Source of the DNA: Polyangium jinanense
GTDB taxonomy: Bacteria; Myxococcota; Polyangia; Polyangiales; Polyangiaceae
Length of the DNA stretch: 17,618 nucleotides
Direction of reading: 5' to 3'
Assembly: GCF_028435365.1 (NCBI RefSeq)
Contig: NZ_JAGTJJ010000101.1
Location: 1-17,618 of the forward strand
The position numbers and the translations under genes were made by a program. The notes under the pieces were generated by a model that was given only the letters and a program-made list of their open reading frames with translations, searched no databases and had not been told where the DNA came from. Every line of letters begins with the position of its first letter. Positions within the stretch are counted from its first letter, which is position 1. Positions 1 to 17,618 of this stretch are shown here, piece after piece.

Positions 1-114
1 GGCAAGTCCTCCGGAGGACCCCCCGGATCCGTCACCATCAGCCGCGGGCTCGAACGACTGGCACCCGCAGCAGAGATGCTACGGGTGCTCAGGGAGAATG
101 GGCTCGCGAGATGA
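1..114 (+). CDS. 3' end of an unidentified plus-strand gene (partial)
   Basis: An open frame enters from the left edge and ends at TGA 112-114. The 37 visible residues finish with LERLAPAAEMLRVLRENGLAR, an Ala/Leu/Arg-rich, probably helical tail. Codon use is GC-rich as in the rest of the window. The first copy of the large inverted-repeat element begins about 10 bases after the stop. I do not recognise the family. The fragment is too short to exclude a chance open frame, so only its existence is proposed. Confidence 0.35.
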   Translation, partial: GKSSGGPPGSVTISRGLERLAPAAEMLRVLRENGLAR

Positions 115-124
115 GACCAATGCT

Positions 125-372
125 CAGAACCAGGGCAAGCCCTGGACCTTTGGGGAAGAACTGCGCGGTGCGCAGTTCTTCCAACGGGCCCGTTTGCCGG
201 TAGAACCGTCAGCGCGGCGGTCTCGATGGGCAGGGCCTTCGCTGGTCTTGCCTTGGCCTGTTCGATGAACTGCGCATTGCGCAGTTCATCGACCCCGGGT
301 CCAGCGCTTGCGCTGGTCCGGGTCCAGGGGCGGATAGCCCCTGGTGGGGCCTGGGGCAACGCCCCAGCGCGA
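125..372. repeat. Giant inverted-repeat element, copy A
   Basis: This is one of three copies of the same non-coding element (others at 4724-5070 and 17325-17618). It contains two 27-bp palindromes at 155-181 and 264-290, both built on GAACTGCGC...GCGCAGTTC. The left one has GAAG/CTTC ends and the right one GATG/CATC ends. Outside them lie further small hairpins: CCAGGGCAAGCCCTGG, CCAGCGCTTGCGCTGG, CAGGGG...CCCCTG and CTGGGGCAACGCCCCAG. The left arm is shorter than in copy C because the outermost hairpins are missing next to the upstream stop codon. No convincing ORF lies in it. It sits just past the 3' end of the minus-strand lipoprotein gene. Confidence 0.85.
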
Positions 373-384
373 CGCCCCCATCGA

Positions 385-4611: not shown

Positions 4612-4723
4612 GACAGAGCCTCCGTCGTAAAAAGACGCGTGAACTCTATCATCGGCCGAAAAGCCTCAGGGGACTTTTCGCCGTTCCGTAGGCTCTTGCA
4701 TCAACGCATCTTTATGCTGAAGG

Positions 4724-5070
4724 TGCGCTTCGCTGGGGCTTTGCCCCAGGCCCCACCCGGGGCTGTCCGCCCCGGGACCCGGACCAGCGCAAGCGCTGGA
4801 CTCGGGGTCGATGAACTGCGCGATGCGCAGTTCATCGAACAGGCCAGGTCAAGACCAGCGACGACCCTGCCAGCCAAGACCGCGGCGCTGAGGATTCAAC
4901 TGGCAACGTGCCCGCTGCCAGCGTGAAACGCACCTTCCTGGTCTTGCCACCGGCCTGTGGGAAGAACTGCGCATCGCGCAGTTCTTCCCCAAATGGTCCA
5001 GGGCTTGCCCTGGTTCGGGTCGAGGGGCGAACAGCCCCCGCGGGGCCCGGGGCAGAGCCCCGGCGCGGCC
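4724..5070. repeat. Giant inverted-repeat element, copy B (reverse orientation)
   Basis: The second copy of the element also seen at 125-372 and 17325-17618, here inverted relative to both. The 27-bp palindromes are at 4810-4836 (GATG/CATC type) and 4961-4987 (GAAG/CTTC type), separated by 124 bases. Flanking hairpins include CTGGGGCTTTGCCCCAG, CCCGGGGCTGTCCGCCCCGGG, CCAGCGCAAGCGCTGG, CCAGGGCTTGCCCTGG, GGGGCGAACAGCCCC and GGGGCAGAGCCCC. It fills most of the 460-base gap between the GH-A lipoprotein gene and the small lipoprotein gene and abuts the latter's stop codon. The remaining 4612-4723 should contain the promoter of the GH-A gene, but no clear promoter was recognised. Confidence 0.88.
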
Positions 5071-5071
5071 A

Positions 5072-10998: not shown

Positions 10999-11796
10999 AT
11001 GGACGTCAGTCTTCAGGCGATATTCCCAGGCATCTACGTGTTCACGCCGGGCCGCCGCGTGCACTGCATGCGGCAGGTGAGGGCGGAGGCGCTCGCGGCG
11101 GAGCTCGCCGCGCTCGCGTTGCATGCGGATATCTGCGTCGCGCATGATCAAGATACGCTCGTCATCGAAGCAAAGTGGAATGGCCGCGCGCAGGACTCGA
11201 CCGTCGTCCCGGGGCTGCGTGAGCTCGACATCACGCTCGACGGGACGATAACGTCTCTCCGCGACACCATCGATCGCCAGGTGCGAGCTTCCAAGGCGGG
11301 CGACCCGCTCGCCGTTTCCGGCGCGTCCTTGCTCCAGATTCTCTTTCCGCTCGGCGCGGCGGCCGTCACGAATGCCACGTATCCTGACGAGGCGGCCGAA
11401 GTGGAGCGGATCCTGACGGAGCTCAAGCAACCCAAATGGGCATCGCTCGTGATGGAGTTTGGTTTGACGCGTATGATCGTTCATATCACCGACCTTGCGA
11501 CCGAATACAGGAAGCTCCTCGATACGCCCGCCGATGGCTTGAAGTTCCTTGCCGTCAAGGAAGCCCGCGCGAAGGGCCAGAATCTCATGCTCCAGGCCAT
11601 GGCGATGATCGCCGGCAGGCATCCGTCGGAGAGCGACGCGGACCGCGCGGGCCGACAAGCGCTCATGGGCCCGATTCTCCGTCAAAATGATGCCATCGGA
11701 CAGTACCTCAAAGCCCGTCGCTCGGTCCCGGACGTGAACCCCGAAACGGGCGAGGAGATACTGCCCGCGGTGCCTTCGGCGAACGCGCCGACCTGA
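10999..11796 (+). CDS. Conserved-looking protein of unknown function
   Basis: A 265-residue, probably cytoplasmic, largely helical protein with no signal peptide or membrane segment. The start is ATG 10999 with AAGGA 7 bases upstream; the open frame extends 34 codons further but without ribosome site. It opens MDVSLQAIFPGIYVFTPGRR. The middle part includes LDITLDGTITSLRDTIDRQV, ASLLQILFPLGAAAVTNATY and FGLTRMIVHITDLATEYRKL, with regular helix periodicity. It ends in a Pro-rich tail (DVNPETGEEILPAVPSANAPT). Third-position GC is high, supporting real coding. No catalytic motif or family is recognised. It is divergent from the AraC gene, and the 43-bp tandem hairpin array starts about 20 bases after its stop. 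Confidence 0.82.
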   Translation: MDVSLQAIFPGIYVFTPGRRVHCMRQVRAEALAAELAALALHADICVAHDQDTLVIEAKWNGRAQDSTVVPGLRELDITLDGTITSLRDTIDRQVRASKAGDPLAVSGASLLQILFPLGAAAVTNATYPDEAAEVERILTELKQPKWASLVMEFGLTRMIVHITDLATEYRKLLDTPADGLKFLAVKEARAKGQNLMLQAMAMIAGRHPSESDADRAGRQALMGPILRQNDAIGQYLKARRSVPDVNPETGEEILPAVPSANAPT

Positions 11797-11817
11797 ACCC
11801 GAGCCGGGGACCACTTC

Positions 11818-12161
11818 GAGGTCGGCAAGCCGACATCAATCCCCAGCCGGAGACCTCTCCGAGGTCGGCAAGCCGACATCAATCCCCAGCCGGAGACCTC
11901 TCCGAGGTCGGCAAGCCGACATCAATCCCCAGCCGGAGACCTCTCCGAGGTCGGCAAGCCGACATCAATCCCCAGCCGGAGACCTCTCCGAGGTCGGCAA
12001 GCCGACATCAATCCCCAGCCGGAGACCTCTGCGAGGTCGGCAAGCCGACATCAATCCCCAGCCGGAGACCTCTGCGAGGTCGGCAAGCCGACATCAATCC
12101 CCAGCCGGAGACCTCTGCGAGGTCGGCAAGCCGATATCGACCCCCAGCCGGAAGGCTCGGG
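11818..12161. repeat. Tandem array of eight 43-bp double-hairpin units
   Basis: Units start at 11818, 11861, 11904, 11947, 11990, 12033, 12076 and 12119, an exact 43-base period. The eighth is degenerate, and a degenerate half unit precedes the first. Each unit contains GTCGGC-AA-GCCGAC, and each unit junction forms GACCTC-TSC-GAGGTC, so two short hairpins alternate along the array. Copies differ mainly at one position (TCC versus TGC at the junction), which divides the array into an earlier and a later block. There are no spacers, so it is not CRISPR. The period is not a multiple of three and no gene uses it. It lies between two convergent genes (stops at 11796 and 12215). Confidence 0.93.
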
Positions 12162-12214
12162 AAGGTCCGCGTGTCGGCATCGACATCGAGCCGATGACCT
12201 TCGGGGCGGAGCCG

Positions 12215-12754
12215 TCAGCGGGGAGCGCAGAGCGCGAGGCGGCTCCGGGCGAGCATCAGGCGGGCGTAGGCGGTCTTCAGGTGGATCCCGAGCGCGCGGG
12301 CGATCTCCGGCATCGAGCGGCCTTCGATTTCGTAAGCCCAAAGCACGGGGGCGAGCTTTTTGCCGAGCTTCTGGTTGGCCTTCCAGAGGAGGCGGGTCGC
12401 GTCCATGGCCTGCGTCGTCCGCGGATGGACCGGAGGCTCGGGGGGTTCGTCCGTGAGGGCTTCCCAGCGATTCCGCGCGAGCTTGCGATGGTTCGCCGCG
12501 CGATAGATCGCGATCGTGTAGAGCCAAGCCCGCGCTTGCTCACCCCACAAGAGCCCGTCGCGCCGTCGCCAGGCGACGAGGAAGACATCCTGCACGAGGT
12601 CGTCAACCTCCCGCTCCTCCACGCGGCCATGCTTGAGCAGGACGGAGCGGACGAAGCCCCGGAACTCGCGGTAAAACCACGCGAAGGTGGCCTCCGGGGA
12701 GGCAAAGGTCACCGGTTTCTTGGCGGACTCAGGACAGACCTCTAGATTGATCAC
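12215..12754 (-). CDS. ECF-type RNA polymerase sigma factor (second)
   Basis: About 179 residues. Region 2 reads FAWFYREFRGFVRSVLLKHG, VDDLVQDVFLVAWRR (D-x-x-QDVF signature) and WLYTIAIYRAANHRKLARN. Region 4 reads LGKKLAPVLWAYEIEGRSMPEIARALGIHLKTAYARLMLARSRL, a helix-turn-helix. The length matches a minimal two-domain ECF factor. The start is uncertain. GTG 12754 is chosen because the reading frame upstream (to 12901) looks non-coding; a weak GTGGAG lies about 10 bases before it. No anti-sigma gene adjoins it: downstream is the 43-bp array and a convergent gene, and upstream is the IVS-protein cassette. Its control may therefore be unusual or its partner elsewhere. The pairing with any gene here is unknown. 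Confidence 0.85.
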   Translation of the reverse strand: MINLEVCPESAKKPVTFASPEATFAWFYREFRGFVRSVLLKHGRVEEREVDDLVQDVFLVAWRRRDGLLWGEQARAWLYTIAIYRAANHRKLARNRWEALTDEPPEPPVHPRTTQAMDATRLLWKANQKLGKKLAPVLWAYEIEGRSMPEIARALGIHLKTAYARLMLARSRLALCAPR

Positions 12755-12974
12755 AGCTCGTGAACTCCACTGCCGTTGGGGTTTGCGGGTCAGACGCCGG
12801 TCGGTGTTGCAAGCGCCGGCTGGCGTCGCTTGTTTTGTCCCACAGATGAGGGCGAAACTCAACTTCAAAAAGGGAGATAGGTTCGTCGCCGGAGAACCCA
12901 CGATCCACCGGGAATGGTGCGAGGTGTGTTGGAATGGGAGCCGTGATCCTGCGCTGAAAGTCCCTCACCCCCAA

Positions 12975-12999
12975 CCCCTCTCCCGTCCCGGGAGAGGGG
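12975..12999. terminator. Hairpin in the IVS-protein cassette flank, left copy
   Basis: CCCCTCTCCCG-tcc-CGGGAGAGGGG makes an 11-bp perfect stem. It lies 15 bases beyond the stop codon of the truncated four-helix-bundle gene, where a terminator is expected. There is no T tract, so intrinsic termination is uncertain. The equivalent stem in the right copy is longer. Confidence 0.5.
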
Positions 13000-13014
13000 C
13001 GAGGGCGGCTGGTG

Positions 13015-13220
13015 TTATGAGGCGCGGTGGTAGACGAGGCGTCCCAGGGTGGCGATGACGTGGTCCATGCGATCGAGGACCTTTGGATTGACGCTGCCGG
13101 TGTAGCGCATGGCCTGGGCGACCTGGATGCAGGCCAGCACCTCCCGAGCGGAGCCGAGGGCGGTTTGATAGCGCTGCCGTTTATGCCCGGCCGTGTTCCC
13201 TGCCCCCTCGGCGATGTTGA
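13015..13220 (-). pseudogene. Truncated four-helix-bundle (23S rRNA IVS-type) protein gene
   Basis: The frame ends at TAA 13015-13017 and matches the last two-thirds of the intact protein at 14434-14763: NIAEGAGNTAGHKRQRYQT and onward to RMDHVIATLGRLVYHRAS, with only a few substitutions. The conserved first helix is missing; at about 13220 the frame continues into unrelated sequence that has no start with a ribosome site. The family fold needs all four helices, so this copy is very probably dead. Confidence 0.78.
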
Positions 13221-14213: not shown

Positions 14214-14317
14214 TCATCGCCGGCGTCGTCGCGCCGCGAGCACGAGCAACACGAGCGGGGCTGCGGCGCTGCGCGTCGGCGCACGACAGCCGCAGCCACC
14301 GCCGTCGTCGGCCGCCG
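14214..14317 (-). pseudogene. Orphan MYXO-CTERM tail of a lost surface protein
   Basis: The minus-strand frame reads SAADDGGGCGCRAPTRS, then AAAPLVLLVLAARRRRR and TGA at 14214-14216. This is a MYXO-CTERM-type sorting tail: Cys-Gly-Cys, short hydrophobic stretch, Arg cluster. Upstream the frame runs directly into the start of the right IVS-protein cassette at 14318, so the body of the gene is missing. The cassette probably inserted here, or a recombination at its end removed the gene. Confidence 0.65.
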
Positions 14318-14639
14318 ACGATCCACCGGGAATGGTGCGAGGTGTGTTGGAATGGGAGCCGTGATCCTGCGCTGAAAGTCCCTCACCCCCTCGCCCCTCT
14401 CCCGTCGCGGGAGAGGGGCGAGGGCGGCTGGTGTTACGAGGTGCGGCGGTAGACGAGGCGTCCCAGGGTGGCGATGACGTGGTCCATGCGATCGAGGACC
14501 TTCGGATGGACGCTGCCGATGTAGCGCATGGCCTGGGCGACCTGGATGCAGGCCAGCACCTCCCGAGCGGATCCGAGGGCCGTTTGATAGCGCTGGCGTT
14601 TATGCCCGGCCGTGTTCCCTGCCCCCTCGGCGACATTGA
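14318..14639 (-). repeat. IVS-protein cassette, right copy (shared part)
   Basis: This is the part of the right cassette that is shared with 12900-13220, in the same orientation. The cassette itself continues to at least the start of its intact gene at 14763. The identical non-coding flank at 14318-14433 shows that the repeated unit is larger than the gene, as expected for a cassette that moves or recombines as a block. Confidence 0.88.
14388..14424. terminator. Strong hairpin after the four-helix-bundle gene
   Basis: CCCTCGCCCCTCTCCCG-tcg and its perfect complement form a 17-bp stem with a 3-base loop, 9 bases beyond the stop codon of the gene at 14434-14763. It probably ends its transcript, although no T tract follows. 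Confidence 0.6.
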
Positions 14640-14763
14640 GGGCGACGCTATGCATGGCCCTTCGCAGTTGCCGAGCGAGATCCGAATCTCTCCGTTCGAT
14701 CTGCTCCGCGATACCCGCCGCGTCCCCAGCCATGGTCAAAACGACTTCGTAGATCCTCAGCAT
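14434..14763 (-). CDS. Four-helix-bundle protein (23S rRNA intervening-sequence protein family)
   Basis: A 109-residue helical protein beginning MLRIYEVVLTMAGDAAGIAE, then IERRDSDLARQLRRAMHSV, then LNVAEGAGNTAGHKRQRYQT, ALGSAREVLACIQVAQAM and RMDHVIATLGRLVYRR. The LR-A--S---N-AEG motif and the length are characteristic of the family first found encoded in 23S rRNA intervening sequences (S23-type proteins). ATG 14763 has GGAGGG 7 bases upstream. The molecular role of the family is not settled; it forms oligomeric bundles. Here it is not inside an rRNA gene but in a repeated cassette, with a truncated sister at 13015-13220. No partner gene adjoins it. Confidence 0.9.
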   Translation of the reverse strand: MLRIYEVVLTMAGDAAGIAEQIERRDSDLARQLRRAMHSVALNVAEGAGNTAGHKRQRYQTALGSAREVLACIQVAQAMRYIGSVHPKVLDRMDHVIATLGRLVYRRTS

Positions 14764-14824
14764 GACGAAACCCTCCGCCCGACGACCCAATCGCCGGGAC
14801 CCACGTCCCACACCGTCGCGCGGA

Positions 14825-14918
14825 GCGCTCTTCAAGGCTGCGCAGCACCGCGCGGAGCCGCGCGGAGCAGCACGTAGTGCTGCGAGCACGGTGAGCACGG
14901 CTTGGCCTTGAAGAGCGC
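14825..14918. repeat. 14-bp inverted repeat with inner hairpin
   Basis: GCGCTCTTCAAGGC (14825-14838) and GCCTTGAAGAGCGC (14905-14918) are a perfect inverted repeat 66 bases apart. Inside is GCAGCAC-gta-GTGCTGC at about 14867-14883 and a repeated CGCGGAGC. The whole could fold as a long branched hairpin. There is no ORF in it. It lies between the IVS-protein gene and the hexanucleotide repeat upstream of the M20 dipeptidase. Confidence 0.7.
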
Positions 14919-14963
14919 GAGCACGACGGTACGATCAAAGTCCCCGAGCGGGATCCTCTGCAT

Positions 14964-15041
14964 CCCGCTCCCGCTCCCGCTCCCGCTCCCGCTCCCGCTC
15001 CCGCTCCCGCTCCCGCTCCCGCTCCCGCTCCCGCTCCCGCT
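14964..15041. repeat. Hexanucleotide microsatellite (CCCGCT)13
   Basis: Thirteen uninterrupted CCCGCT units, followed by about 17 bases of imperfect continuation (to about 15058). The run ends about 55 bases before the start of the M20 dipeptidase gene, so it lies in the promoter or 5' leader. On the opposite strand it is purine-rich AGCGGG. Slippage would change the length of the leader. Confidence 0.95.
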
Positions 15042-15112
15042 TGCCGCTCCCGCTCCCCGCTTCACCTTTGTACACGTTCGGCGCTAAGTTCCCGCCCGAA
15101 GGAACGACCCGC

Positions 15113-17283: not shown

Positions 17284-17324
17284 TGGGCGGGCGCCGATGG
17301 CGCTTGACAAGCGAGCGTCGCGCC

Positions 17325-17618
17325 GGGGCGCTGCCCCGGACCCCGCGGGGGCTGTTCGCCCCTCGACCCGAACCAGGGCAAGCCCTGGACCTCAGGGGGA
17401 AGAACTGCGCGATGCGCAGTTCTTCCCACAGGCCCGTGACAAGACCGCGAAGGGTCGTTTCACGCCGTCGGCGTCATGGGTCGAGACGTCAGCGCTGCTG
17501 TCTTGGCTGGCAGGCTCGTCGCGGGTCTTGACCTGGCCTGTTCGATGAACTGCGCATCGCGCAGTTCATCGACCCCGGGTCCAGCGCTTGCGCTGGTCCG
17601 GGTCCAGGGGTGGACAAC
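17325..17618. repeat. Giant inverted-repeat element, copy C (runs off the window)
   Basis: The most complete left arm of the family: hairpins GGGGCGCTGCCCC, GGGGGCTGTTCGCCCC and CCAGGGCAAGCCCTGG, then the 27-bp palindrome at 17399-17425 (GAAG/CTTC type). After 118 bases comes the second palindrome at 17544-17570 (GATG/CATC type), then CCAGCGCTTGCGCTGG. It is in the same orientation as copy A. The central spacer carries CAAGACC near the left palindrome and GGTCTTG near the right one, so the symmetry continues inward. It starts about 40 bases after the stop of the preceding plus-strand gene. Confidence 0.87.

Follow-up and report, generated by a model that had tools for sequence, protein, structure and literature searches.

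A chain-of-hairpins repeat of Polyangium is very probably a MITE of a Tn5-like insertion sequence

The repeat described here, found in three copies in a 17,618-nucleotide stretch of Polyangium jinanense DNA (hereafter the window), is very probably a MITE of a Tn5-like IS (IS4 family, Tn5/IS50 type). It is assigned to the MITEs and not to the REP/REPIN class because it has terminal inverted repeats, 9-bp target-site duplications and a partner IS with the same ends and the same duplication; these features bear out the MITE reading, one of several offered in an earlier note on this DNA.

Organization of the repeat in the window

The three copies proposed in the earlier note are all present as copies of one repeat, designated elements A, B and C, and lie in both orientations as had been stated. 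Element A (128-377, minus strand) has its right arm cut at hairpin H6 by an IS, element B (4724-5070, plus strand) possesses both arms with its outer terminal repeats lost, and element C (17314-17618, minus strand) is cut by the window edge. The bounds of two copies are revised: element A, previously placed at 125-372, starts at 128, because 109-127 is the end of the IS, and its right edge is at 377; element C, previously placed from 17325, begins at about 17314.

Each element contains two 27-bp palindromes, of GAAG and GATG type and assigned to neither strand, located respectively at 155-181 and 264-290 in element A, 4961-4987 and 4810-4836 in element B, and 17399-17425 and 17544-17570 in element C. 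As described earlier they face each other across a spacer (82, 124 and 118 in A, B and C), and they are exact save for a 3-base centre. The palindrome core ACTGCGCNNNGCGCAGT occurs six times in the window at no more than one mismatch, and 0.00 times in shuffled sequence. Every arm is a chain in which a 27-bp palindrome is joined to three GC-rich hairpins, giving hairpins H1-H8 over the two arms. The arms are opposed and are indeed related as reverse complements, with 101 nt at 78% complementarity in element B and 82 nt at 82% in element C. The whole element measures about 335-390 bp and carries no gene. Complete copies elsewhere extend about 22 bp further at each end than the repeat of about 320 bp; at the four checkable ends of A, B and C the best match to this terminal sequence has 13-14 mismatches in 27, indicating that the outer terminal sequence has been lost there.

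Two further features of the window are a tandem array at 11755-12227 with a 43-bp unit, in which eight register-shifted 172-nt copies show 71-100% identity to the reference copy, and an array of CGCTCC-like hexamers at 14960-15057, near the start of an M20 peptidase gene.

Terminal repeats and target-site duplications

Complete copies are bounded by terminal inverted repeats CTGAGCATNGGTCTCATC (consensus ends GGAGGCG/CTGAGCAT) and flanked by 9-bp target-site duplications. A 17-base terminal motif was found outside the repeat, 2-5 bases (once 19) from its edge, at 29 of 266 ends, as compared to 3 of 266 control stretches; the other 237 ends have no outer terminal motif. The motif extended by three bases gave 126 matches at no more than two mismatches in six genomes and none for the reversed control. 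Most of these mark one end of a copy, and some form inverted pairs 334-390 bp apart.

After 75 additional stretches around such matches had been fetched, all loci together contained 38 two-ended places, defined by both ends with at most five mismatches summed. Six are of IS length, three of 885-1033 bp and 29 of 320-468 bp. The 9-bp duplication is perfect at 10 of the 38 and one base off at six, and 207 of 342 positions match, as compared to a mean of 121 and a maximum of 156 in 5000 shuffles. The match fraction is 0.605 for a duplication of nine bases and 0.30-0.40 for lengths of 4-8 and 10-13. The signal is retained on exclusion of the six IS-length places (166 of 288 positions; seven perfect and five one-off among 32), and it was present in the initial set of 21 places without any IS (109 of 189 positions, as compared to 65 on average and at most 92 in shuffles). 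Against it, six or fewer of the nine positions match at 22 of the 38 places.

Longer forms, measuring 0.9-1.0 kb and sharing these ends, were also recorded (L247:1500-2510, L222:637-1521 and L235:1500-2532); those in L247 and L222 have short repeats in the middle, and that in L235 carries an IS end.

The partner IS

The IS sharing the element ends, probably an autonomous partner, is 1503-1504 bp long and is present as one copy in G001, the nearest genome (locus L317), and as four copies in G005 (L318-L321), which are 99.6-99.9% identical. The 9-bp duplication around it matches at 9 of 9 positions in L317 and at 8, 9, 4 and 9 of 9 in L318-L321, and the partner was probably active recently. In G002 a diverged relative (L323), which also bears the terminal repeat on both sides, lacks the duplication (2-3 of 9).

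The IS transposase matches the IS4 family model NF033590 with 254.8 bits (cut-off 160) and possesses the Tnp_DNA_bind, DDE_Tnp_1 and Dimer_Tnp_Tn5 domains above cut-off. Its structure match is the Tn5 transposase (1mus, E 4.6e-36), and all six solved chains at E <= 0.01 are Tn5 transposase or its inhibitor form. The search for partners started from 47 DDE_Tnp_1 matches in the six genomes, of which 30 loci and 16 further stretches covered 45. Among these 45 no two-ended partner was seen in G003, G004 or G006, whose draft contigs may break at repeats; a single element end with three mismatches lies beside a DDE_Tnp_1 gene in G006 (L313/L324) and in L290.

The resemblance between the element and the IS is confined to their ends. 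Apart from the hybrid L235, in which an element arm is joined to 164 bp of the IS end (89%), the 10 complete elements compared all have 12-21 terminal bases in common with the IS, and their interiors share with it only exact words of 13-14 bases (E 0.009-0.04). Since so little is shared beyond the terminal bases, the element is not simply the IS with its interior deleted. The common ends and the common scar suggest that the element may be mobilised in trans, wherein the transposase of the partner would bind the element ends, move the element and duplicate 9 bp of the target.

An IS1-like transposase (PF03400) in L262 was also considered as the partner and was rejected because its gene belongs to a distinct insertion bounded by different ends, GGTAGTGGGG. 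This 3.2-kb insertion splits an element (L262:1060-4598) and shows an apparent 8-bp duplication, GGACTCGG, read by eye; relatives of the IS1-type protein are present in all six genomes.

Insertion of the IS into element hairpins

The first 127 bases of the window (plus strand) are the 3' end of the partner IS, inserted in element A. They include the C-terminus of the transposase (1-114, plus strand, with the stop codon at 112-114) and the terminal inverted repeat (109-127, 0 mismatches; 0.00 in shuffles). The adjoining bases 128-136, AACCAGGGC, assigned to neither strand, are the right-hand half of the target-site duplication within hairpin H6 of element A, and are duplicated at 9 of 9 positions around the IS in L317; the left-hand half, if there is one, falls beyond the window. 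Bases 1-149 of the window are 96% identical to the IS end in L317 together with 22 bases of its target; as the match stops at base 149 and window bases 380-1500 have no match in L317, this locus does not look orthologous to the window site, which suggests that hairpin H6 has been hit more than once.

The IS abuts element sequence or arms at four of the six IS-length two-ended places as compared to one of the 32 shorter ones, and the IS end in the window likewise abuts element A. A further junction of IS and element was read by eye in the flank of L059 (P. fumosum). Three of the duplicated IS targets are AACCAGGGC (once) and GGCACGGCC (twice), both within hairpin H6.

Targets were rebuilt for the 16 places, four of them IS, where eight or nine of the 9 bases are duplicated. 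A central perfect stem of at least 7 occurs in four of them, as compared to 2.2% of control positions, and the mean stem is 5.6 as against 3.9; nevertheless, the stem is 5 or less in nine of the 16, and insertion into palindromes is a preference and not a rule. Two targets (L247 and L257) are another hairpin repeat, CCCCTCTCC...GGAGAGGGG. The window itself holds two near-identical stretches (94-99%) at 12897-13220 and 14315-14639 with a CCCCTCTCCCG...CGGGAGAGGGG hairpin, the second of which overlaps a 23S_rRNA_IVP gene (14434-14898); hairpins related to this one are the targets of the two-ended copies in L257 and L247.

Insertion would tend towards GC-rich palindromes, among which, in Polyangium, are the hairpins just past stop codons and those of the element itself, and extruded hairpins may be the preferred target. 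A bolder proposal, put forward tentatively and rated as rather unlikely, is that the IS and the MITE form a self-landing pair. Both would have a common liking for GC-rich hairpins, and the MITE, being a string of such hairpins, would with each copy draw later insertions away from genes. Its body would have been built by, and kept for, repeated hairpin insertion, and exact pairing would be maintained since an extruded hairpin would be the target.

Distribution in Polyangium and beyond

The repeat is common in Polyangium, a genus of soil bacteria: it was detected in all six genomes of the genus among 59 relatives and, weakly (E 8e-4), in one of the 53 relatives outside the genus, with 12 candidates scored per genome; among the searched genomes it is restricted to Polyangium, this one weak match apart. 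The earlier note had named two observations that would count against a repeat family, namely only three copies or arms unrelated to each other; neither was made, as the 27-bp palindromes number 431, 248, 177, 183, 480 and 37 in the six genomes, a range of 37-480 per genome, with 431 in G001, 183 in G004 and 177 in G005. At least 120 matches were obtained in G001 from 40 of 370 candidates scored. Polyangium accounted for 76 of the 80 matches listed in a pattern scan of named genomes (at least 120 stretches). In a 60-genome sample of the family, three genomes of the genus carry 599, 220 and 56 copies of the core motif, which is found once each in three of the 57 others. The open-access literature searched on palindromic repeats of Polyangium and Sorangium cellulosum yielded no description of this repeat. 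Across 112 genomes, the outer-hairpin motif GGGGCNNNGCCCCNGNCCCC was counted 402 times in G001, 28 times in G151 of the same phylum and no more than four times in any of the remaining 110.

In G005, scoring of 40 full-length copies out of 224 candidates placed them all within 2.3-10.0 Mb of contig C1. The 5.5 Mb that run from 10.0 Mb via the contig start to 2.3 Mb, and include dnaA at 11.65 Mb, hold none of these 40 copies; a palindrome at 1.31 Mb shows that this remainder is not empty. A bias of orientation relative to replication was rejected for the same 40 copies of 224 candidates, 22 lying with the fork and 18 against it by hand count, on the assumption of a terminus opposite dnaA at about 5.0 Mb.

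Turnover between species

At 13 interspecies gaps the element is present in one species and the other has fewer than 100 bases; at least two of these gaps hold a different hairpin instead (L013 and L024). No consistent duplication was seen at the 13 empty sites, which gave one 4-base candidate (L019), most such copies being without outer ends.

Full-length copies in shared gaps have opposite orientations in some species pair at four of six gaps. Of 13 species pairs at these gaps, a single one (element C of the window with L069, 94.0%) exceeds the 95th percentile of random pairs (92.3%). In-place inversion of the flipped orthologous copies, though possible, is unneeded because most flipped copies resemble each other no more than random pairs do (mean 87.1%). 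Among 132 sampled copies no pair is more than 94.8% identical, and with most copies lacking their outer ends no fresh burst is seen.

The surroundings of element B (4686-5071) were also followed. Its flanks lie at separate places or on separate contigs in the six genomes of the genus, or only one flank is listed. In G005 they are separated by 88 kb in inverted orientation, which marks the element as the site of a rearrangement breakpoint. Rearrangement mediated by the elements was considered on this basis but set aside, as the region is shuffled in short blocks.

Genomic placement and a possible role at gene ends

None of 185 unique places lies within a predicted gene. Among 174 places with both neighbours, 107 are convergent, 52 tandem and 15 divergent, as compared to 311, 979 and 280 of 1570 background gene pairs; genes were taken from a purpose-made codon-usage caller with rough starts, and many loci had been fetched for holding the repeat. 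The median distance from stop codons is 13 bp (n=266), and from starts 116 bp (n=82). Five contiguous regions, chosen by their match to the flanks of element B and including one of 140 kb (P. fumosum) that holds no element, show the element in 20 of 133 spaces between convergent genes, as compared to 14 of 450 between tandem and 5 of 133 between divergent ones. Copies are therefore found near gene 3' ends, with convergent gaps favoured; the location of REPs within 20 bp of convergent gene ends is a precedent (PMC3733652). The target tendency, together with the loss of harmful insertions, could bring copies to lie between convergent genes. A recurrent gene beside the elements was sought and rejected, the largest cluster among 358 neighbour proteins having 11 members, which look like protein kinases, and that of the random control 24.

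The same placement is what would be expected of a bidirectional terminator or a protector of mRNA 3' ends, which the transposon would have spread and which would since have been retained for that function, and this explanation is a real possibility although not the one expected to hold. The filling of convergent spaces, the closeness to stop codons and the equal constraint on both strands (see below) agree with it. Moreover, in element-free spaces of 20-150 bp, hairpins without T-runs occur in 10 of 47 lying between convergent genes, in 8 of 210 between tandem genes and in none of 53 between divergent ones (0, 2 and 0 in shuffles), and hairpin clusters devoid of U-trails are reported to terminate (PMC8355165). 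The terminator suggested in the earlier note thus fits by placement; however, a T-run was found at 0 of 260 ends, and the element comes and goes at orthologous gaps in either orientation, its occupants mostly being no more alike than random pairs. A terminator role is compatible with a MITE origin, to which it could possibly have been added.

Fold and covariation

The fold was assessed on an alignment of 76 copies out of the 185 places, with joined regions, a third palindrome, scores below 200 and unusual lengths left out. Across 75 pairs and 76 copies, 99.4% of 5652 cells are paired (95.5% in shuffles); slid structures pair at most 46.7%, a comparison that favours the tested structure, which was read from one copy. 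Both sides have changed in 21 of 75 pairs (11.2 in shuffles) and in 208 cells (45.1 in shuffles), and one side in 13 cells, these cell counts being inflated by subfamilies. Double changes are absent from H3 and the left loop pairing, and palindrome H4 shows one. The small hairpins covary almost purely via Watson-Crick double changes. Neither strand is favoured, given that G-T cells (15 of 5652) are about as scarce as A-C cells (10). The triplet after H6 covaries with the loop triplet of H7 in 74 of 76 rows (TCC/GGA 38, TTC/GAA 34, CGC/GCG 2).

The view of the element as one large palindrome stands as a description of sequence; covariation backs the small hairpins and hardly the large one. A long arm-to-arm hairpin was rejected as the selected fold, as the palindrome centres do not covary (112 Watson-Crick as compared to 116.9 shuffled in 84 elements). 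Arm-to-arm pairing amounts to 3683 as compared to 3665 +/- 8.5, and the double changes to 53 as compared to 45.3 +/- 4.3, a weak excess of about 2 sd.

A family of non-coding RNA genes, with a conserved fold and a pairing of loop to flank (pseudoknot), would also produce double changes in 21 of 75 pairs, 99.4% paired cells and triplets in loop and upstream flank that change together with two exceptions in 76. This explanation is nevertheless very improbable: the G-T and A-C counts show no strand preference, further pair types are as frequent as in shuffles (33 as compared to 32.7, no excess), and the structured RNA suggested earlier is not supported by Rfam, to which nothing in the window matched with a gathering score; the best weak match had E 0.064 and 17.7 bits against a cut-off of 70.

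In the MITE, the local hairpins may have been kept nearly exactly paired after insertion, either through selection acting on both strands or through template-switch repair. Exact pairing would fit either; template switching is proposed in published work as a source of paired changes without a G-U step (PMC8794818).

Comparison with known systems

Bacterial MITEs are exemplified by RUP with IS630-Spn1 and by the Correia elements. Like these, the present repeat is short, gene-less and present in many copies, with terminal repeats and a duplication length common to an autonomous IS. It differs in that the partner is of IS4/Tn5 type, the body consists of eight hairpins strung along two inverted arms, and just 12-21 terminal bases are common with the IS.

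REPINs and BIMEs, with which ERIC belongs in the comparison, are likewise intergenic inverted palindromes with a spacer near gene 3' ends, but the present element has no linked RAYT, has 9-bp duplications and is much larger (320-390 bp). Derivation as a REPIN or BIME, in which a REP-associated tyrosine transposase (RAYT) copies REP palindromes arranged as inverted pairs, would agree with the two inverted palindromes and spacer, the occurrence of single arms as well as pairs, and an intergenic position favouring convergent genes as for published REPs (PMC3733652); it is the least credible reading, since PF01797 (REP transposase) has no match at E <= 0.001 in three of the six repeat-carrying genomes (G001, G004 and G005) despite their 431, 183 and 177 palindromes, four PF01797 loci of 3.2-3.4 kb in other genomes contain no element, the duplications are of 9 bp and the ends are common to a DDE transposon, and the palindrome foot has no conserved GTAG or CGTC (consensus GGAGGCG/CTGAGCAT, by eye). 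The BIME-like alternative of the earlier note is hence discarded in favour of the MITE.

The partner resembles IS of Tn5/IS50 type in its transposase domains, its length of about 1.5 kb and its 9-bp duplication; it differs in possessing its own terminal repeat and in that four of the six IS-length places are in arms of its small relatives. ISRm22 is another IS4-family element inserted into repeated palindromes, with all nine Sinorhizobium meliloti copies in REPs according to the accessible portion of PMC1525189. Those REPs are not described there as relatives of the IS, whereas here target and IS share their terminal repeats.

With this assignment, a string of hairpins that had lacked an explanation becomes a defined transposon system of a myxobacterial genus. 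It provides a series of natural hairpins whose paired bases nearly always change jointly, with no G-T intermediates, making selection and template-switch repair testable against each other, and it indicates that the gaps between convergent genes can exchange structured DNA among related species.
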